A DNA stretch of 38,051 nt from Spirochaetota bacterium. GTDB taxonomy: Bacteria > Spirochaetota > UBA4802 > JAFGDQ01. The translations under genes were made by a program, and so were the position numbers. Position 1 is the first letter of the stretch. Every line of letters begins with the position of its first letter. Under the pieces are notes generated by a model. That model had not been told where the DNA came from. It searched no databases and was given only the letters and a program-made list of their open reading frames with translations. This document shows, piece by piece, positions 8,115 through 38,008 of this stretch. The stretch spans positions 1 to 38,051 of the forward strand of contig JAXHTS010000076.1 in NCBI GenBank assembly GCA_034190085.1. Reading direction: 5' to 3'.

Positions 8115-10086
8115 TCAAAAACTAAATTCCGAAGGCACTTCCATTTTATATTTTTGTGTTATTATTTCGTTAATAATCTTTGCCACTATAGATGGCTTAT
8201 CAATAACAAAATAATGCCCGCCATCTTCAACTTCAATAAGTTCAACTGAGTCAGAAAACAGTCACCAATTATCGAATCTTTTTTATATTTCTTGGTAAAT
8301 GAATCAACATTGCCAATTATATTATAAATTGGCACATTCAATTTAACCTGATCATGTTTATTGTATATTTCAGTAAAATATTTGAAAGCAATATCAGTAT
8401 CTCGTCTAAATTTTTTTATAATAATGTTTAACGTCTCACTGGATACATCCTCACTGAAAGCGCCAAGATTTTTCATAATTTTGTATATTCTTTTATCACT
8501 AATATATTTCCAGGGATTAATAAATTGTATAATATTTGAAGTCCTTGAAATTAAAATAGCCGCCCCCAGGATTACACAGACCAGTTCTCCCTCTGTTTGC
8601 TGAATCAATTTTGAAATCTCTAAAGCTAAAGCGCTGCCTGCACAATTTCCATAAACGATAATAGGAGTTGATATATTATTTGTTATTTCCTTGACGCATT
8701 CTATAGCAATTTTTTGAATAAAATTGCCACAAGTTTCCTCATATGATATATCATACCCCGGCAGAGCGATTGAATATAATGCGATCCTGTCATTCAGGGA
8801 AGAAATCTCACATGCTAGGTTTTGATATGCTGTGCCTACCCCACCTGCATATGGAATACAGATAATGGATATTTTTTTATTCTTTCCACAATCGTTTAAT
8901 TCAAATAATATTTTATAATCGTTATTATACCCATAACTTATATGATTTGCTATCTTTTTGATAGTATCTTTCTCGTAAACTAGGGAATTATAGTAAAATA
9001 TAACATTTAAATTATCGCCTGGAAAAACAATAATATTAAAATCATAATTAGTCTGTTTGTAAATACTTATATGCTCTATGCTATAGCCAATCCGGTCCTT
9101 TAGTTCTCCATTAATAAAAAACAGTCTAACAATCTCCTCGCTTGGATAATTTTCAAATGCCAATATATGATCCATTAAGCTTCTATTAGTTGAAAAAAGT
9201 GATTGTATGAGATATAATGGGCAGTATTCATATCCTAATGATGTTGTTGTATTCTGATGCACTATTTGTAAAAGTTGAGTAAAACTATACCCTTTCTCTG
9301 CTTTTATCCTTACAGGTAGAGTATTCAATAATAATCCAATTATTTTTTCTATATCTTCAATTTCTGCAGTTCGAGCAGACACTACTGTGCCATACACAAC
9401 ATCATCTGTATTGTTATATTTTTGGAGTGATATCCCCCAGATCGTCTTAAATACTATATTAATTGTTGTATGATTAGCTTTGGCAATGTTATTTAAACTG
9501 GTTGTCAATTCCTCATCTATAATAAATTTGTATTCTTTCGCTCTATATTCATCTTTTTTTTGCTTTTGGATCTTTGGTAAAGTCGCTATTTGTTCATATC
9601 CTGTAAGGTATTCCCTCCAGTATTCCATTCCCTTTTCTATGTTTTGCTTGCTTAGCCATAAGATATAGTACTTGTAAGGAGGTCTATTTATTTCAGGGAG
9701 AACTTCATTATTTTTCAAGGCATTATAAATAATTAACATATCCCCTATAATATGCGACATGCTCCATCCATCTAATAAAATATGATGACAACTCCATAGC
9801 AGGTAGTATTTATTATAAGTCTTATAGGCATTTCCTTCAAAACTATTTGTAAAGGTTCATCTGCAACTTCCCAGTTAAAGACTGTCCTAAATATCGGATT
9901 CTTATTTATTAAATGATTCCATGCCTCCTCTATGTATTTTATATTCAATTTACCATCAATATAACATCCAAATTGATCGAAATATGCTGAGGAATCTTTT
10001 TCAAATAAGGAATGAAACAGCATTCCCTGTTGCATAGGTGACAACGGATATATATCAGCAGTATTCCTTTTTGTTAGATATTTCAT
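8115..10086 (-). pseudogene. Decayed NRPS remnant: condensation domain plus thioesterase
   Basis: Three reading-frame pieces on the minus strand form one broken gene. The first (10086-9772) is the start of an NRPS condensation domain with YPLSPMQQGMLFH. The frame then shifts near 9800 with loss of part of the domain, and the catalytic HHILLDGWS follows. The rest of the condensation domain runs to about 8950 and passes straight into a thioesterase (IPYAGGVGTAY) without adenylation or carrier domains. The thioesterase nucleophile elbow reads G-N-C-A-G, with Cys in place of Ser. Its aspartate is in NVDSF. The catalytic histidine (EDGGHYFVID) lies in a different frame beyond a second frameshift and a TGA near 8260. 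It cannot make a functional synthetase. It most likely derives from deletion within a larger NRPS. Confidence 0.85.
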
Positions 10087-16932: not shown

Positions 16933-17964
16933 ATGAATAGTCTAATGGGAAGGGCATCTCTCTGGAGCATAGTATTTGTAATAATTTTTGCATTTATAAG
17001 CCTTTCAACCTGCTCTAAGCAGGAAGAGAAAGTGAGTGAAATAAAGATTTGCAGTCAGATGCCAATAGGTCATCATATATCAAAGGCGATTGATATATTC
17101 TGTGATAAAGCAAATCGGAAAAGTAACGGCCATCTTGTATTTAAAAACTTCCCTGGCGGTCAACTCATGAAGGACTCAGAGGTTCCTCATGCTATTTCCA
17201 CTGGCACCATTGAAATGGCTCAAACCTTCCTCCCCTGGTGGAAGGGCATTGTTCCCAGAGTAAATCCTTATTCTGCAAGAATCTACGACAATAGAGACCA
17301 TAACCTCCGTGTCATAAGAGGCCCCTTGCTTCAATATCAGTCAAGATTGATGGAAGAAAAGGGAATGTGCAAGATCATTGCGCCCATCCTTTACAACTCC
17401 AGCGGTGGTTACATCCTCACAAAGCCAGTAAGAAGGGTTGGAGATATGAAGGGAATGAAGATCAGGATTCCTTCAAAATCTTCAGCAGCGGAAGTGCGAT
17501 CATTGGGAGGAGCACCAGTGGTTATGAGTTCTGCTGATGTATATATGGCGCTTCAGCGAGGAACAATTGATGGAGCGGTCTCTGGAATCACTAGCTTCTA
17601 TGATCGAAAGTGGCACGAGGTGGCTAAGCATCTCCTCATATTGAGGGTAGCTATGGCCGATTTTCACATTGTCGCAAATGTGAAATGGTGGAATAACCTG
17701 GCTGCTGATTTACAGCAAATTATAATAGATGCAGCTAGAGACGCTACAGAATACTGTGATATGCAGGTTTACAATAAAGAAGAAGAAGCTTTTATTAAAC
17801 TCAAGGAGAAGGGGGTCCAAATTAATCAAATCTCCCATAAAGAGTACAACACCAGTTGGAAGCCAATAATAGAACCAGCATTGAGAAGCGCTGCGTTAAA
17901 AGAGTTTGGAGAAAGGCTTATAAATCAGTACGATCGCTGGATAGAAGAAACAAAATCTGAATAA
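16933..17964 (+). CDS. TRAP transporter substrate-binding lipoprotein, DctP family
   Basis: A 343-residue extracytoplasmic solute receptor. The signal peptide ends LSTC with C27 as the likely lipidated residue, so it is membrane-anchored. The DctP fold is recognised by MPIGHHISKAIDIFCDKANR, FPGGQL, the conserved RIPSKSSAAEVRSLGGAPVVM segment with the arginine that clamps the ligand carboxylate, and GTIDGAVSG. It captures an organic acid for the Na+- or H+-driven DctQM permease encoded next. GAGGTGGAGGG precedes the ATG. The ligand cannot be named; divergent acyl-CoA genes suggest a carboxylic acid destined for beta-oxidation-like breakdown. Confidence 0.92.
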   Translation: MNSLMGRASLWSIVFVIIFAFISLSTCSKQEEKVSEIKICSQMPIGHHISKAIDIFCDKANRKSNGHLVFKNFPGGQLMKDSEVPHAISTGTIEMAQTFLPWWKGIVPRVNPYSARIYDNRDHNLRVIRGPLLQYQSRLMEEKGMCKIIAPILYNSSGGYILTKPVRRVGDMKGMKIRIPSKSSAAEVRSLGGAPVVMSSADVYMALQRGTIDGAVSGITSFYDRKWHEVAKHLLILRVAMADFHIVANVKWWNNLAADLQQIIIDAARDATEYCDMQVYNKEEEAFIKLKEKGVQINQISHKEYNTSWKPIIEPALRSAALKEFGERLINQYDRWIEETKSE

Positions 17965-17994
17965 TAAGTGAAATGCGACAAGGGGAGATGTGAG

Positions 17995-19878
17995 ATGAAA
18001 AATGCGAAGCGAATACTCGATAAGACATCAGATTTATTAGCCGCTGGAACGGGTTTAACTGCTGGGATCTTGCTTTTATTGATAATACTAATAGTAGTAT
18101 ACGAAATTATTTCACGAAGACTCTTTAACTCCCCGACGATTTGGTCAATAGAGCTTGTTGTCATTTTTCTTGTATGGTTTTGCCTTATGACATTGGGATT
18201 CTGTCAGAAGGAGAAGAGGCATGTCCGAGTTGATATTCTAATCTCATACTTCTCTGAAAAGACTACAGCCTATTGGAACATAGTCACCCTAAGCATCACC
18301 CTTTTATTTACTATATTATTGATTTATTATTCCTGGGATGGATTCTGGCATTCTCTGATAACTGAAGAAAGGTTCCCCAGTGTTTGGGAGCCTTACATAT
18401 GGCCGATGAAGCTCGCTCTCCCTGTTGGCTGCATACTTTTAATCATCCAACTAATTACTGACATAGTCTCTAACATTTATATGATAAAATTTGAACTTTT
18501 AAAGAATGGTGACAGGTGGTTTGATAAATCATATCTGCTGATTATTCTTTTTTTTATCCTTTTGGGATACTCAGCTTTCCTTCTCACCTCTAGTCCTATA
18601 TCAGGATTGATCCTAATGTTATTACTCCTACTCTTTGCCGGCGTGCCTGTATTCGCGACACTGGGACTGATTGGCATGTATGGGCTTTATTATCACTATG
18701 GAGGTAGCTTAGCGCTTACACAGGTGCCTGAGATACTATACGGCACTCTAGGAAATTTTTCCCTGGCAGCGCTTCCCTTGTTTATTCTAACGGGTTTTGT
18801 GCTTCAAATGTCAGGTGCTGGTGAAGAGTTATATGATCTTTTTGCTAAATGGATGGGCCGCCTACCTGGGGGCTTGGGCCTTGCCACTATATTTTCCTGT
18901 GCCTTTTTTGCCGCAATCTCCATATCTAGCGTGGCAACGGTTGCTACAATCGGCCTTATTGCCCTCCCTTCACTATTAAAGAGAAGCTATAGCCATTCCT
19001 TCTCCTATGGACTCATAGGTTCTGGAGCGACACTGGGAATAATGATACCCCCTTCAGCCACAATGATCCTGTATGCTGCAGTAACCGAGGAGTCGATGGG
19101 CAGGTTGTTGATAGCTGGTTTGATTCCTGGCCTGATGATGGTGACGTTATTCGGCATCTACTCTGTCATTTTTTGCAAGAGATCCGGAACTTATGAAAAG
19201 GAGCAGGCCTGGTCATGGGATGAGAGATGGAAGGCAATGAGAGATGCTGTATGGGTGTTGCTGGTTCCGATAATAATTACAGCTGGCATTTTCACAGGTG
19301 TCTTCACGGTTCTTGAATGCGGTGGGATTGCATCTGTTTATACAATAGTGATGGTTATAATTAGACGAAAAATCGGACTCCGTGATATACCACGCATGTT
19401 GAGAGAATGTGGAGGAAATGCAGGTTTTATTATAATCATCATAGCAGGAGCCTTGACTATGGGCCGCTTCCTCACGCTTCTCCAGATCCCTCAACAGGCG
19501 ATGACCTTTGTGAACGATGTGAATTTTGCTCCATGGATGGTAATCTCTTTTATTATGATAATGTTTATTGTACTCGGTCTATTTCTTGAGGTCGCCTCTG
19601 TAATGATGATTACATTGCCGGTAATCTATCCGATTATTATTGGTCTCGGATATGATGGTGTTTGGTTTGCCGTGCTGATGACCCTAAACATGGAGATGGC
19701 ACTCCTCACACCGCCTGTTGGACTTAACCTCTTTGTAATTCAGGGAATTGCGAGGGCCCCGCTTGGAACCATCATAAAGGGAACCGCGCCATTCTTTCTT
19801 ATTATGGTCTTAGGTATGTTGATCATCTATTTCTTCCCGCAGATAAGCCTTTGGCTGCCAAATTTAATGATTAATTAG
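17995..19878 (+). CDS. Fused TRAP transporter permease DctQM
   Basis: A 627-residue fusion of the small DctQ (about 1-160, four membrane helices, with RRLFNSPTIWSIELVVIFLV) and large DctM (about 185-627, many helices, ending PPVGLNLFVIQGIA...). DctM drives uptake using an ion gradient; DctQ is its obligate partner. The frame is open to a GTG at 17968, four bases after the receptor gene. The ATG at 17995 has a well-placed AAGGGGAG site, so I prefer it. It completes a two-gene receptor-permease operon. The stretch to the next element shows no clear terminator. Confidence 0.92.
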   Translation: MKNAKRILDKTSDLLAAGTGLTAGILLLLIILIVVYEIISRRLFNSPTIWSIELVVIFLVWFCLMTLGFCQKEKRHVRVDILISYFSEKTTAYWNIVTLSITLLFTILLIYYSWDGFWHSLITEERFPSVWEPYIWPMKLALPVGCILLIIQLITDIVSNIYMIKFELLKNGDRWFDKSYLLIILFFILLGYSAFLLTSSPISGLILMLLLLLFAGVPVFATLGLIGMYGLYYHYGGSLALTQVPEILYGTLGNFSLAALPLFILTGFVLQMSGAGEELYDLFAKWMGRLPGGLGLATIFSCAFFAAISISSVATVATIGLIALPSLLKRSYSHSFSYGLIGSGATLGIMIPPSATMILYAAVTEESMGRLLIAGLIPGLMMVTLFGIYSVIFCKRSGTYEKEQAWSWDERWKAMRDAVWVLLVPIIITAGIFTGVFTVLECGGIASVYTIVMVIIRRKIGLRDIPRMLRECGGNAGFIIIIIAGALTMGRFLTLLQIPQQAMTFVNDVNFAPWMVISFIMIMFIVLGLFLEVASVMMITLPVIYPIIIGLGYDGVWFAVLMTLNMEMALLTPPVGLNLFVIQGIARAPLGTIIKGTAPFFLIMVLGMLIIYFFPQISLWLPNLMIN

Positions 19879-20126: not shown

Positions 20127-20821
20127 ATGAACGAGAAGCGAGTCAGAAAATTTACAGAACTTTATGAGAAAGGGGGTGAAGAAGCTTTAAAGAGATTAGC
20201 AGAGAGAAGCCTAATATTAAAAATAAGATCAATCCTATAATAGAAGATGCAGTTTATGGATGGCCATTGATCGTCCGGCTTATAGCCAAATGTGGGTTTC
20301 TAACGAGTTAAAGAAAGATGGCTTATTCGCTTCCCCAGGTAGAGTAAGGAATATTTGGCAAACACATGATCTGGAGACATTGGTTGCTTTTGCTAAACTC
20401 TACACTACTAAAACTGCTATTACAGCTGCGGATATTTCAAACGATAGAATGTTGCGATTTTTTGATGATCAAGAGATTCCCCTTTTGATGATCTTAACTG
20501 ATAGAGGGACTGAATATTGTAGGAAAATGGAAATCCATGGAGATCAGTTGTATTTAGCAATTGAGAATATTGGTCATTCTAAAACAAGAGCCAGAAGCCC
20601 TCAATCGAATGGCATTTGTGAAAGATTTCATAAGACTGTGTTGAATGAATTTTATCGCTTTGCTTTTAAAAAAAATATACAGAGATTTAAAAGAGTTACA
20701 AGAAGATCTTGACTATTGGATAAAAGAATATAATGATGAGAGGACACATACTGGTAAGTATTGTTACGGAAAAACGCCCATGCAAACATTTCTAGATTCG
20801 AAGAATATTGCTATAGAATAA
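20127..20821 (+). pseudogene. Decayed rve/DDE transposase (IS3/IS481-like)
   Basis: One transposase spread over three frames. It opens MNEKRVRKFTELYEKGGEEA, then shifts into KPNIKNKINPIIEDAV, then into ATG 20260 with PAYSQMWVSNELKK and THDLET. The sequence then jumps directly to LVAFAKLYTTKTAITAAD, so roughly 90 residues holding the first catalytic aspartate appear deleted. The second aspartate (LTDRGTEYC) and the glutamate (NGICERFH) remain. A last frameshift leads to YNDERTHTGKYCYGKTPMQT. It is dead. The block TGTCAGGTT near 20862 might be an element end; no matching left end was found. Confidence 0.85.
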
Positions 20822-30412: not shown

Positions 30413-31126
30413 CTAGCTTGTCGGGTATCCTATTTGATCCCAACTCTTGCCCCTTAAATTGATCTTGTATCCAGTATTGCCTTTCTGTAGAGGTATCTCC
30501 TGTGTAAACTTAATTGCGCCTAGAGGGCATACTGAGACACAAGCCTGCTTGCCGTCAATGCCCCCCTTCTCTTTCCAGAAGGGTGTGTTGTAGCAGAGGT
30601 CGCAGGTTTGTGCGCGTTTTTTCTTGAAATTCCATACTGCCCTGCTTGGCTCAAAAGGGCATGCCTTAACACAGGACATGCAGCCAATACATTTTTTCTG
30701 ATCAACCATCCTTACATTCCCCTTCTTGGTTTCAGCATGAAGGGCTCCAGTTGGGCAGGCTTTAACACAAGCGGGAGATACACACTGTCGGCATTGTTCC
30801 AGAGTAATATCAACCGGATATTTTTCAAAGGGATTTTGAATCACCTGTATTCTAGACATAGATAGATTTTCTTCTCCTTCATGCACTAATGAACAGGCGA
30901 GCATACAGGTCATACAGCCCTGACATTTCTTTGTATCAACAAGAATATATCCCTTTGATGGCTCTATCCCTGACTTATCATTCTCTATAGTAATCGATGA
31001 TTGTTCATCCTCTGAATCAAAACAACCAGCGAATCCTACTCCGATTACTACAGTACCTGCAATTATTAAAAAATCTCTTCGAGAGAGATCATTGTTCTTC
31101 TGCTTTTTCTTTATTAAATTATTCAT
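30413..31126 (-). CDS. Tat-exported four-cluster ferredoxin, electron partner of AOR
   Basis: A 237-residue iron-sulfur protein. The N-terminus has a twin-arginine motif (SRRDFL, 15-20), a hydrophobic stretch and a G-F-A-G-C35 lipobox-like site, so it may be a Tat lipoprotein. Four [4Fe-4S] motifs use C68/71/74/78, C112/115/120/124, C146/149/152/156 and C175/178/196/200, as in HybA/DmsB/YdhY-type subunits. It lies downstream of the aldehyde oxidoreductase gene on the same strand and probably passes its electrons onward at the membrane. AAGGAGTG precedes the ATG. A 158-bp gap separates it from the 112-residue gene. Confidence 0.88.
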   Translation of the reverse strand: MNNLIKKKQKNNDLSRRDFLIIAGTVVIGVGFAGCFDSEDEQSSITIENDKSGIEPSKGYILVDTKKCQGCMTCMLACSLVHEGEENLSMSRIQVIQNPFEKYPVDITLEQCRQCVSPACVKACPTGALHAETKKGNVRMVDQKKCIGCMSCVKACPFEPSRAVWNFKKKRAQTCDLCYNTPFWKEKGGIDGKQACVSVCPLGAIKFTQEIPLQKGNTGYKINLRGKSWDQIGYPTS

Positions 31127-31284
31127 AGAAATTGCACTCCTTAAGATGCCAGGTTGATGTAAATTAGTGTAATCCCCTAAGTTAAGTTGTTGCTCTTTAA
31201 GCTAAGGATATAACATTTCTGTACATATTATTCTTCTCTTTGTACATTAGCTTATTATTCAATAAGCTTAATAATATTTCCTTA

Positions 31285-31623
31285 TCACAGAATTTTTTGA
31301 CACTGAAGCAGCCTCTCCTCCATTTTGTTCCTGATTAGCAATGACTTTTCATGATTGCTGATATCCTTCTGAATCATCACTTCAATTTCATTTGATAATT
31401 CATCATCACCCATTGTATCCTTTATCCACTTCCTTAAATAATTAAAATCTATTCTGGGATGTGGATCATTCAAGAGATCAACAACTTCCCTGAAGCTGTA
31501 GAGTGATATGGATAGAGGTCCTGTTCGTGCACGCAATCTATATCCTATAAGGCGTTCCTCAAAGCCTACATCAGTCATAATCCTTGAGGATAAATCCTTT
31601 GATGGTTTTGATAATCTTCCCAT
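31285..31623 (-). CDS. Unknown 112-residue protein coupled to AOR
   Basis: A soluble, charged, probably helical protein with no signal peptide, no cysteine cluster (a single C near the end) and no recognised domain. Its ATG lies two bases after the AOR stop, so it is translationally coupled to the enzyme and likely serves it. The middle (FREVVDLLNDPHPRIDFNYL, then RKWIKDTMGDDELSNEIEVM) suggests a small helical bundle. It could be a dedicated chaperone for cofactor insertion or for export with the Tat partner; this is inference from position. Confidence 0.65.
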   Translation of the reverse strand: MGRLSKPSKDLSSRIMTDVGFEERLIGYRLRARTGPLSISLYSFREVVDLLNDPHPRIDFNYLRKWIKDTMGDDELSNEIEVMIQKDISNHEKSLLIRNKMEERLLQCQKIL

Positions 31624-31625
31624 TT

Positions 31626-33824
31626 CTATCCCCTCCCTAACCTGTCCTTTTTCTTGAGTTCATCCGCCACAAAGTCCAACCCTAATGATTTCAATGTCTT
31701 CCTAGTAGGCCATCCTGTGCTAATGTCCCATCCTTCTAACTTGTAGAATTTTGATTTCCATTCTTCAAATTTTGATTTATCAAGAGACCTGCCTTCAACA
31801 CTGATGTAATCCCACTCTCCATCTTCCTTTCCAGGCATGTAGTACATTGTGAATGAACCAGCCCCTGCAATGGATTCTTTGCCTGCAAAGGGGATATTAT
31901 AAATATAATCTGCAAAATGCACAATATCCCTATGCCTGCCTTGTAAAGACCAAATGGCATTGTCAAGATTCCATATCTTCCTGCCAATCTCCATGCCCTC
32001 TGTGAAACTTAAATTTTTACCAGTTACTGCATTGAAGAATTTTTGTTCTCCCTCTCCAGTTAGTCCTCGTTTATTCGGGCTATGAGGGTTATAGAAGTCT
32101 GGAAAACGATAGTCGCAGTAAAGTATGGATTGCTTCCAGAACCTGGTATAATGCCTATGCCAGGCTACTAATTTGGCAATATGTTCTGAATACATATTCT
32201 CTGTGCTGAAATCTAACATCATTGGATTGTTCTCAAAGGGTTTCATCTTTTCAGCAAATATTTCAGTAATATCTTTTGCGGAAATTGGAGGATCCTTAAA
32301 CGCCCATTTCGCAATGCTGGGAGTCCAATATAAGTGCCAATTAAAATCATGTTCATTGATATCCCTGTCTCCTAAAATTGAACCATATCCCCACTCCACT
32401 TCAGCTCTGGGATCATAACCATGATCCGGCAAGCCCCAATAAGAATATGGCAGTAATCCGGATTGCAAGTCTTCTTCTAATCTACCCCATCTCTTAGCAG
32501 CCCTATAAAAACCTTCAGCCATATCATCGCCGATTCCCTCGCGAAATGTTATCATCTGCATTAATTTTTGCGCAAATTCATAACTTCCTAATTTCTCAAA
32601 TGGGAGATCACAGTTTATCTCTTTCCCTGATCCAAGAAGGCCCATTTTATTCAGGTCTCTTAAATATGGGATACCCCTATACAGTTCATAAGCATTTATC
32701 CCATACTTTTGGGCTAAATCTGTGGCACGGTATGCAGCAGGGGTTTGTTTGCCCAATAAAAGGTGAAATGCCTGGGCAGATCCATGCTGTCCAAAATATT
32801 CAAGAATCGATGATATTGCGCGTACTATCATTCCGCTATTTTGCCTGCGTTCGATAGAAGAATAAAATGCCGTATCTATACAACTTGATTCATTGCCATG
32901 GCCACTCTCGTTTCGTAAACGGCAGCCTGCATGACAGCCAATACATGCTTGAGGTCTAGATTCTTTTGGCCTTTGCCAAAAAACCGTGGGCATACTCGGT
33001 GCTTGAAATCCAAACATCGGATTTAGGTCATTGACATCCTTTATTTTGTCAGGGTTATCAAGTTCCATAGCATATAGCTTCTTGGTCCATAACCGAGCCT
33101 CCATCAATGCATTTGGATCAGCAATTTTCACGCTACCAGTTCCGATGACACTTATAGCCTTTAATTTTTTTGAACCCCACACCGCGCCAAAGCCACCCTG
33201 ACCAGAGGCATTACCAGCATCATGAATGAGGCATGCCACTCTACATAAATTCTCCCCAGCAGGTCCAATTGTCAATATCGCTGGCCTTTGGGTGGTCCTT
33301 CCGCCATTTTTCGACAAGCCTACCTCTACCCAACCACCATATCCTTTCTTGTCACCAAGCTTCTGCCATATCTTTTCCTGGGTCATCCACGTATCCATAC
33401 CCCACAGATTATCGGCATCCATGATATGCACATCTTCATTAATGATATTAATCCAGACAGGTTTATCCGCTTTACCTTCAATTACTATCCCGTCCCAACC
33501 AGCAAATTTCAGCATTGCACCAAATCTGCCACCAAAGTTGCTCCTAGTAAACCATTCTATAGGAGAAGACTGTACCCCGATCCCCTGTACCTCTGTTCTC
33601 CCAGATGCTCCGGGGGAAAGGGTTCCACTTAACGGGGACGTCATGATAATGATCACATTTCTGGGATCAAATCCGTTAATTGCCTTATCCTTCACAATAT
33701 CCCAGAAAATTGCCGAACCAATGCCATGTCCCCCTCCCCATTGCTCATATTCTTTAGTGTCTATGATTGAAACCTTTCTCCTCGTTAAATTCAGACGAAT
33801 TATCTTTCCTGTATATCCATTCAT
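31626..33824 (-). CDS. Aldehyde:ferredoxin oxidoreductase, YdhV-like tungsten enzyme
   Basis: A 732-residue member of the AOR family, longer than classical AOR (about 605) and closer to E. coli YdhV (about 700). The N-terminus YTGKIIRLNLTRRKVSI is typical. The [4Fe-4S] ligands are C294, C297 and C301 (ACIGCHAGC), with C570 (SILYC) as the likely fourth. The C-terminus GWDISTGWPTRKTLKSLGL is also conserved. The family binds a tungsto- or molybdo-bispyranopterin and usually interconverts aldehydes and acids. The protein itself has no Tat signal, although its ferredoxin partner does. First gene of the operon; GAGG precedes the ATG. Confidence 0.93.
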   Translation of the reverse strand: MNGYTGKIIRLNLTRRKVSIIDTKEYEQWGGGHGIGSAIFWDIVKDKAINGFDPRNVIIIMTSPLSGTLSPGASGRTEVQGIGVQSSPIEWFTRSNFGGRFGAMLKFAGWDGIVIEGKADKPVWINIINEDVHIMDADNLWGMDTWMTQEKIWQKLGDKKGYGGWVEVGLSKNGGRTTQRPAILTIGPAGENLCRVACLIHDAGNASGQGGFGAVWGSKKLKAISVIGTGSVKIADPNALMEARLWTKKLYAMELDNPDKIKDVNDLNPMFGFQAPSMPTVFWQRPKESRPQACIGCHAGCRLRNESGHGNESSCIDTAFYSSIERRQNSGMIVRAISSILEYFGQHGSAQAFHLLLGKQTPAAYRATDLAQKYGINAYELYRGIPYLRDLNKMGLLGSGKEINCDLPFEKLGSYEFAQKLMQMITFREGIGDDMAEGFYRAAKRWGRLEEDLQSGLLPYSYWGLPDHGYDPRAEVEWGYGSILGDRDINEHDFNWHLYWTPSIAKWAFKDPPISAKDITEIFAEKMKPFENNPMMLDFSTENMYSEHIAKLVAWHRHYTRFWKQSILYCDYRFPDFYNPHSPNKRGLTGEGEQKFFNAVTGKNLSFTEGMEIGRKIWNLDNAIWSLQGRHRDIVHFADYIYNIPFAGKESIAGAGSFTMYYMPGKEDGEWDYISVEGRSLDKSKFEEWKSKFYKLEGWDISTGWPTRKTLKSLGLDFVADELKKKDRLGRG

Positions 33825-35125: not shown

Positions 35126-37612
35126 ATGGAACAAATAGTTAAAGAAAAGAGCGAGAAAGAATTATACGACGCTAGCGAATACTGGTGGTGGGCAGAAAAA
35201 AAAATCGCCAAGGCTCAATTATTTGAGAAAAGCTGTTTGATCAAAGGCTACAAAGGGGTCAGCATGATTGCCGGGTGTTCAGTTAGACCTTGATAATATC
35301 CGGTGGCATACTAAGATTTTTAGGGAAGCGCCGCCATCGGAACCAATTATTTTAATCAGAGCCAGAGCCTTGGCTGCAGTGCTGGAAAATATTCCTATTT
35401 TTATCACCGACTTCTCACAGATTCAGGGTTATCCAGGTGGGGCTCCGCATCTTATTACTTAAATCCCGACAGCTTCATCTATGATCAATGATGACCTGAT
35501 AAATGATCGGACGGATATTATTTCTGAAAAAAATTTGGAAGATGTAAGGAGATGGTTGAATTCTGGAAGGGGAGGACATATGAGGATGTGTGCAAACAGC
35601 ATTATACTCGTAAAAAGAGGCAGGCATCTCTTATGCTGGCTGATTATGGTGGAGCTGGGAGAGAATTGGCTACCTTTGATTATGTCACTCCACAGCCGGA
35701 TTGGATGTATCAGTGATTTGACTCAATCATAGACACAATTAATGAAAAGATGTCTGAGACAGAGAAGGCGGTTCGTAAGGCTAACACAGCAGAGGAACAG
35801 ATATCATTTATGGAAAAGATTACGAACTGGAGGGCAATGAAGATTTGTCTGGAGGCGACAATAATGTATGCTAGGCGTTTAAGCCTGTGGGACAAGATAA
35901 TCGCGGATAATTATGAGACGGATCCGGACAGGAGGCAGGAACTTTTACAGATAAGTGAAACATGCGAAAAAGTGCCTGCTCGTCCGCCAAAGCATATATG
36001 GGAAGCCATGCAGTTTGACCATTTTGTACAGATAGCATACAGATTAGAATGGCATAATGCTGCATGGCCCTGGAGGCAAGACTAGAGGCATTGGGAATTT
36101 TATAAAAAAGACATGCTTGAAGAGAAGAACCTGACCAGAGACGAGGTGATAGAATATTGTGCGAAGTGGATGATTGCAGCCTATACCATAGGCAAGTCAT
36201 GGGTGAGAGCTGGGATGGAGGTTCTGCAGGGCAGTCCTGGACCTTACGTGTGGACAATTGGAGGGGTTGATGAGCAGGGACGATATGCGTGCAACGATCT
36301 TACAGATTGTTACCTTGACGCTGCCATGATAAGCAGGGTGAGCGATCCAACATTTAGTTTTCGGTATCACTCAAATGCTCGCACAGAGACGCTTAAAAAA
36401 GTATTTGATTGCATACGTCATGGTCTAGATTATCTATTTCTTAGGAATGACGATGTACTTATTCCAAATCTCATGCAATGGTTTGATCATCCCTTAAGAG
36501 AGGCAAGGCGTTGGGTTCATCAGGCATGTATGGCGCCTGCTCCTGATACAAGGAGGGGAGCTCCTGCTTTGAGATATCCTCAAGCATCAATAGGCACAGG
36601 GGCTAAGGCAATCGTCCTAGCCTTTAATAATGGTGTTGATCAAATAACCGGGATGCTGACAGGAGCAAAGACTGGAGATTGTGAGGAGTTTAAGACCTTT
36701 GATGACTTCTATGCTGCCTGGTATGAACAACTTAAGAGTGGTTTCAAGAGGGCCACGACCCAGGAGCATAAGAATAGGGAGATAGAGGCTAAATTATATC
36801 CCAAACCTATGACAACGGCTCTTTATGAGCGTTGTGTGGAGACAAACGAGAATAGTGCTCGTTCAAAAGAGAGGAGCAGTCTATGGTTTACACTCTTTGC
36901 CTTTGGAGACACTGGAGATTGTCTGGCTGCTGTTAAGAAGCTGATATTTGATGAAAAGAAGTATACCATGGTGGAGTTGAAGGCTGCACTGGATGCAAAT
37001 TGGGTTGGTTATGAAGAGATGAGGATGGACTTTGTTAAGGCACCTAAATGGGTCAATGATGATGACTATGTTGATCAGATATGGGTTAGGATGTATGAGG
37101 ATCTTGGCAAGATGTCCTGGTCAGTGCGGAATATTAACGGTTCACCCTGGCCTACACTGCCTGAAAGCGTAAATACACACATAGCCGTGACCAACCAAAT
37201 AGCGGCCTTGCCAAATGGCAGGAGATTAGGCGACCCCATCTATGATGGAGGATGTTCACCTGGTGCTGGTCTTGATAAGAAGGGATCTACTGCAGTGTTA
37301 AAATCTGTAGGTAAGCTGGACCATATTGGTTCATGCAGGGTACCACTCTTGAACCAGAGACTGTCTCCTGCTCAACTGTAGGGAGAGAAAGGTTTCAGGT
37401 TGTGGAGAGACTATATAAAGAACTGGCATAAATTGGGTATTGGTCATGTTCAATTCAATATGATTGACAATGACACATTGTATGCAGCCCAGACGGATCC
37501 TGAAATGTATAGCGAATTGCTAGTTAGGATTGCCGGATATAGCGCGCATTTTGTTGAGATGAATAAGATAATACAGGATGTAATAATTGCCCGTAATGTG
37601 CAGGATTTCTAA
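35126..37612 (+). pseudogene. Decayed glycyl radical enzyme, alkyl/benzylsuccinate synthase type
   Basis: About 829 codons, the normal size of the catalytic subunit of fumarate-adding enzymes (BssA, AssA/MasD). It is split by frameshifts near 35262 and 35555 and by in-frame stops TAA 35460-35462, TGA 35714-35716, TAG 36083-36085 and TAG 37379-37381. Joined, the pieces read continuously: GVQLDLDNIRWHTKIFRE, GGAPHLIT, TPQPDWMYQ, WHNAAWPWRQD. The thiyl-radical cysteine lies in VHQACMAPAP, and the glycyl radical site is RIAGYSAHF near the end. AGGGGAGGT precedes the ATG. All three stop codons occur, so simple recoding is unlikely. No activating enzyme lies in the window. Among relatives it seems nearest the AssA-like group, from memory. 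Confidence 0.88.
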
Positions 37613-37700: not shown

Positions 37701-37927
37701 ATGATAGGGAATACAATTAGACTTTGTTTATCTATTTTATTGGGTTTATGTATTGGATTAGATGGATTGTCTGGAGCAATGACGAAAAAGAAGGCAAAAT
37801 ATGTATGGGGAATGGGGGTTGTCTCTCCAGACGCAGCTTGGGCTTCAGAACTTTTTAAAGATATTTACCATTACGCCATATGACATGAACAAAATGCCAT
37901 CTGGCGCCACTAAAATTTTAATGCTTA
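37701..37927 (+). pseudogene. Truncated exported protein, cut by the right-hand insertion sequence
   Basis: An ORF begins at ATG 37701 with a signal-peptide-like hydrophobic start (TIRLCLSILLGLCIGLDGLS) and continues KKAKYVWGMGVVSPDAAWAS. It shifts frame near 37865 and then reads TPYDMNKMPSGATKILMLS, where the terminal repeat begins at 37928. So the gene has both a frameshift and an insertion at its end. I do not recognise the family. It follows the hydrocarbon-type locus and may have belonged to it. Confidence 0.6.
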
Positions 37928-37964: not shown

Positions 37965-38008
37965 AAAACTGACACTTATTCCCCCCGGGAGGAATAAGTG
38001 TCAGTTTT
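37965..38008. repeat. 44-bp near-perfect palindrome (right copy)
   Basis: The counterpart of 49-86, with four extra complementary bases on each side (aaaa and tttt) and a single mismatch near the C6/G6 centre. It lies 27 bp before the outward ORF start. Confidence 0.85.

Follow-up and report, generated by a model that had tools for sequence, protein, structure and literature searches.

A decayed AssA/MasD-type glycyl radical enzyme gene among many intact paralogues in a spirochaete genome

A broken gene for a hydrocarbon-activating enzyme may mark the loss of a trait, or the turnover of one member of a gene family, and which of the two applies is the question raised by a locus near the end of a spirochaete contig. 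In this enzyme family, a radical-SAM activase makes a glycyl radical that passes to a cysteine; the cysteine abstracts a hydrogen from the substrate, turning the hydrocarbon into a radical that joins to fumarate and yields an alkylsuccinate. The stretch of DNA analysed here (the window, 38,051 nucleotides) is the whole of contig C76 of a 4.27-Mb draft genome in 86 contigs, 96% complete and with a contamination estimate of 1.9%. An earlier reading of the window by itself (the sequence-only reading) had described a relic of a fumarate-adding glycyl radical enzyme and connected its decay with lost capacity or a change of niche. We instead hold, with a probability of roughly 0.8, that the locus is one decayed copy within a large alkyl/(1-methylalkyl)succinate synthase alpha-subunit family, very rich in paralogues and undergoing birth-and-death turnover, and that the trait itself was not lost.

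The reading of the relic runs from an ATG at 35126 to a TAA at 37610-37612, and is continuous once two frame changes and six in-frame stops are bridged. Over its whole length it can be aligned with an unbroken 829-residue paralogue (C45:2010-4499, minus strand), at 87% identity across 817-820 columns, and its match to the glycyl radical enzyme family is far beyond chance. Separate, unbridged pieces match the Pfam PFL-like domain (E = 1.6e-65 and 2e-19) and the Gly_radical domain (E = 7.9e-14); together with the alignment to intact paralogues, these matches show that the two domains span the full length of the relic. The earlier description of a full-length relic is thus borne out, as is the claim that both radical residues survive, since their codons are kept and the columns are conserved among 111 aligned homologues (Table 1). 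Its count of lesions was partly right: the two frameshifts stand (near 35190-35202 and near 35545), while the in-frame stops number six rather than four (TGA at 35238, 35265 and 35714, TAA at 35460, and TAG at 36083 and 37379). With these breaks the gene is not an intact open reading frame; it is a pseudogene of the AssA/MasD family, not a working member.

Table 1. Positions of the relic, its neighbours and the related genes of the genome; positions without a contig prefix are those of the window.
Feature	Position	Strand	Evidence or remark
Pseudogene, type-B AssA/MasD alpha subunit (glycyl radical enzyme)	35126..37612	+	2 frameshifts, 6 stops
Radical Cys codon (HQACMAP), active site, intact	36527..36529	+	sequence; Cys in 111/111 aligned homologues
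Radical Gly codon (RIAGYSAHF), intact	37535..37537	+	sequence; Pfam Gly_radical; Gly in all rows reaching the column
MasB-like Fe-S (beta) subunit gene, intact, 76 aa	34827..35057	+	all four Cys kept; just upstream of relic
Truncated DctP (TRAP solute-binding) remnant	37701..37883	+	tblastn 55% identity over 55 aa, E 8e-14, vs C45:604-1662
Alpha arrays	C64:28647-78010; also C52, C79, C67, C66, C56, C43, C4, C45, C18		tandem
Gamma gene (BssC/TutF, PF08201), only one found	C35:43148-43309	same as activases	directly behind activases
Two tandem activases	C35:43390-45246	same as gamma	pass TIGR02494 subfamily cut-off, below BssD equivalog cut-off

The surroundings of the relic resemble those of its working relatives. 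The 76-residue protein encoded upstream aligns with small proteins adjoining intact alpha genes, both here and in other phyla, and the four cysteines are invariant among them. It had no direct match in the PDB. The link to MasB (chain B in 9o8u, the structure of MasD) runs through its longer A-type relatives, which match that chain at E = 1.9e-20; because the window's protein aligns with them we call it a beta subunit. Downstream lies the first part of a DctP gene that breaks off ahead of the contig end; its intact counterpart on C45 is a DctP by Pfam. On C4 and C45, unbroken type-B units are built from the same parts as the relic locus (alpha, beta and DctP). Elsewhere in the window, a complete TRAP transporter (DctP and fused DctQ-DctM; 16933-19878, + strand) might provide the membrane component for the DctP proteins encoded in or beside the arrays.

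Among solved structures, MasD is the best relative of the relic, well above BssA: the largest open piece scores 410 bits against MasD (9o8u) and 251 against TutD/BssA (4pkc), and the intact C45 paralogue scores 808 and 480 bits, respectively. We built a 113-row tree and a more careful 27-row tree that include TutD, with NmsA and HbsA absent. In both, the relic pairs with the C45 copy (support 99 and 100/99); this pair is joined next by two copies on C4, and then by copies from a deltaproteobacterium (CSMAG_2901) and a member of the Dehalococcoidia (CSMAG_854) with support of 100/100. From their record names, we take the CSMAG genomes to be cold-seep MAGs. Copies from the SCADC Peptococcaceae and Desulfotomaculum lie at the base of this B clade, which is sister to the remaining AssA/MasD sequences with moderate support, TutD falling outside and the branches at the root being long. 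Neither by score nor by tree does the relic group with BssA/TutD, and these comparisons place it in the fumarate-adding AssA/MasD clade, as the sequence-only reading had held.

Comparison with characterised systems brings out what is shared and what is not. Like MasD and the AssA of Desulfatibacillum alkenivorans, the relic is a full-length family member with both radical residues, and its genome likewise has small Fe-S subunits of the MasB and BssC/TutF types and candidate radical-SAM activases; however, the relic is broken and only 44% identical to MasD, and in place of a single alpha gene in one operon, this genome keeps its gamma and activase genes apart from many alphas. With BssA/TutD, the common ground is fumarate addition by a glycyl radical enzyme and a BssC/TutF small subunit, the gamma also present here. 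The nearest relatives outside the genome are the B-clade proteins of CSMAG_2901 (L045, 70% identity), CSMAG_854 (L047, 69%) and DeMMO5_3 (L046, 65%), along with that of the SCADC Peptococcaceae (L060). A beta gene resembling the window's, encoding 77-81 residues, adjoins the alpha gene at loci L046, L053, L054, L058 and L060, but these outside relatives are intact, belong to other phyla, and come from genomes with far fewer AssA/MasD-type copies. Stagars et al. (PMC4703814) placed a Peptococcaceae single cell in their MasD cluster III, to which our B clade probably corresponds.

The number of intact copies decides against the loss of the pathway. A PFL-like profile search of the genome returned 33 hits, and reading of the contigs gave at least 28 intact, full-length alpha genes on nine of them (13 on C64, three each on C52, C79 and C67, two on C4, and one each on C66, C56, C43 and C45). 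Besides these there are the relic, a copy on C18 that runs off its contig, seven short fragments at contig ends, and two alphas with frame breaks and little other sign of decay (C52:159127-161633 and C66:1508-4016), which are either young pseudogenes or assembly errors. Since many contigs end inside an alpha gene, the true copy number is probably above 28. The sequence-only reading had suggested looking for intact copies and an activating enzyme in related genomes; intact paralogues and two candidate activases are in fact present in the same genome, together with the small subunits, so its proposal of lost capacity does not hold, and a niche change is unsupported. The relic is a product of ordinary gene-family turnover, and it is the repertoire itself that is unusual.

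The alphas fall into group A1 (20 rows, mostly 75-95% identical), group A2 (eight rows, 76-88%) and group B, whose intact copies are 85-88% identical. Because A1, A2 and B each lie on one side of a tree branch, their pattern indicates expansion within the lineage. The alpha count exceeds that of every other genome checked: in 22 other genomes with such genes, chosen by following named relatives rather than at random, we counted at most about nine full copies at scores above 700 bits (on a like model TutD scores 637 and MasD 1368), the next richest being CSMAG_2994. We also considered diversification specific to the substrate pocket of A1, where the most variable residues include seven of the 11 from 367 to 377; since AssA proteins in general also vary at these columns, only a weak hint is left.

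The helper genes are far fewer. Nine beta genes, the window's included, lie among the arrays. A gamma gene was suspected to be missing, as the arrays are without one, and was then found once, on C35, where it forms one apparent operon with the two activases (C35:43148-45246; L137, 9149-11265); the genome-wide PFL-like search found no alpha gene on this contig. This may be a shared helper operon, and further gamma copies could lie in assembly gaps. In the mechanism we propose, the many alphas of A1, A2 and B would be served by a few MasB-like betas, a single BssC/TutF-type gamma and two shared activases, and such a set would probably widen the range of hydrocarbons attacked. The B-type relic would have lost its function through frameshifts and stops, its beta gene staying intact and its DctP neighbour being truncated. 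That the alphas share the gamma and activases is what we infer from this gene layout, and likewise their hydrocarbon substrates and any division of substrate range among them.

The genome has about 20 strong DctP genes, some 10 of them inside or beside the arrays; those amid alphas include C4:23061-35364, C45:604-1662, C64:24802 and 66332, C79:8180 and C66:361. DctP genes also occur near assA in two Smithella loci (L079 and L119). A family-III CoA-transferase pair lies in the C64 array, sdhA/frdA is found some kilobases from the alpha genes of C66, and eight genes of the methylmalonyl-CoA mutase family were counted in the genome. C52 carries a nickel-dependent hydrogenase and no dsrA was found in the genome, such that a fermentative or syntrophic life is possible. 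Taken furthest, these features would describe a modular spirochaete repertoire, with dozens of array-diversified alphas for different hydrocarbons, one gamma and two activases supplied together by one helper operon, and DctP-type binding proteins working with individual units; we put this picture forward tentatively, as somewhat less than an even bet. If real, the layout of many alphas, one gamma and two activases would show a way for a radical enzyme complex to become combinatorial.

The most serious competitor accepts the same enzyme family but assigns it substrates that are not alkanes in this genome; candidates would be terpenes, biogenic lipids, alkylated aromatics, and hydrocarbons that are branched or cyclic. 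In its favour, B-clade proteins share just 43-47% identity with characterised MasD/AssA, so large a set of paralogues suggests a variety of substrates, and one report (PMC12583861) links a glycyl radical enzyme to anaerobic limonene metabolism. Against this, the A1 and A2 proteins share 64-73% identity with MasD and with the AssA-type copies of known alkane degraders, and nest beside them. We consider non-alkane substrates unlikely, yet the idea deserves to be kept in view.

The preferred reading, turnover within an alkylsuccinate synthase family, also requires that the decay be genuine. All eight lesions might instead be errors of sequencing or assembly, for instance where similar paralogues were fused into a chimera, with the gene unbroken in the organism itself; the draft assembly does break within similar genes, two other alpha copies have frame breaks, and the lesions are known from the assembled sequence. 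However, of the 166 near-invariant columns (at least 98% conservation among homologues), 14 are altered in the relic and one in each of three intact type-B paralogues; the next highest rows, at nine, are distant sequences. Base-calling errors would not cluster at such positions, and the difference shows a decaying pseudogene, not solely an assembly error. The 28 sister genes are clean in the same assembly, the neighbouring DctP gene is truncated too, and a dS of about 1.1 to the nearest paralogue leaves little room for collapsed, near-identical copies. We judge the artefact quite improbable.

As for timing, dN/dS is approximately 0.07-0.10 on the relic branch and 0.03-0.06 in its sister, values that are rough given about one synonymous change per site between the two. 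These low ratios suggest that for most of its history the gene encoded a functional enzyme, its breakage coming late, and that it was mostly under purifying selection while diverging from its sister. The sequence-only reading's "recent decay" is therefore apt for the breakage itself, which was late, but not for the long divergence that preceded it.

That the host is a spirochaete, as had been supposed, is upheld by genes for FlaA, the spirochaete flagellar sheath protein, on C52 and C45, contigs that also bear intact alphas; this FlaA was unmatched in 14 control genomes. The window itself carries flgK together with the relic. At E ≤ 1e-150, this genome was the only one with an alpha match, whether among the 46 of the order or among 393 sampled in the phylum. 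Because the nearest relatives belong to other phyla (cold-seep Deltaproteobacteria and Dehalococcoidia) and no other genome of the order matches, acquisition by transfer, also raised by the sequence-only reading, is plausible. The same isolation within the order, with the 1.9% contamination estimate, could be taken to mean that arrays and relic belong to a different seep bacterium whose contigs were binned together with those of the spirochaete, but the linkage to FlaA and flgK on single contigs and the position of arrays inside long contigs (C64, for example, is 121 kb) make such contamination very improbable. Least credible of all, to the point of being negligible, is that the stops are recoded (TGA or TAG, for example, as an amino acid) and the gene expressed: the radical residues are kept and dN/dS is still low, but all three stop types occur alongside two frameshifts and the 28 intact paralogues have no in-frame stops, which rules out recoding as the sequence-only reading had argued.

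The broken copy is thus a sign of an alpha family turning over rather than being lost. Its enzyme family is a known one; the size of the repertoire in a spirochaete is what is unusual. The open-licence papers searched contained no account of spirochaete AssA/MasD arrays; the literature describes spirochaetes of hydrocarbon sites as necromass recyclers (PMC6052044), and an overlooked phylum of alkane degraders has been suggested for other divergent MasD lineages (PMC4703814). The modular picture, if true, would extend hydrocarbon activation to a phylum not previously credited with such chemistry.

Several other features of the window were recorded. A near-perfect hairpin with 22-nt arms (37965-38008) follows the DctP remnant near the contig end, and was not found in any other locus compared. 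An integrase-core transposase fragment lies at 20260-20712 (+ strand; Pfam rve_3, just under the cut-off). The minus strand at 30413-33824 holds an aldehyde ferredoxin oxidoreductase-family gene, then a small gene and a four-cluster ferredoxin-like gene, directed away from the relic. An orphan condensation-thioesterase NRPS piece (8186-10086, minus strand), split over two frames (8186-9760 and 9772-10086), is apparently another broken gene on this contig.
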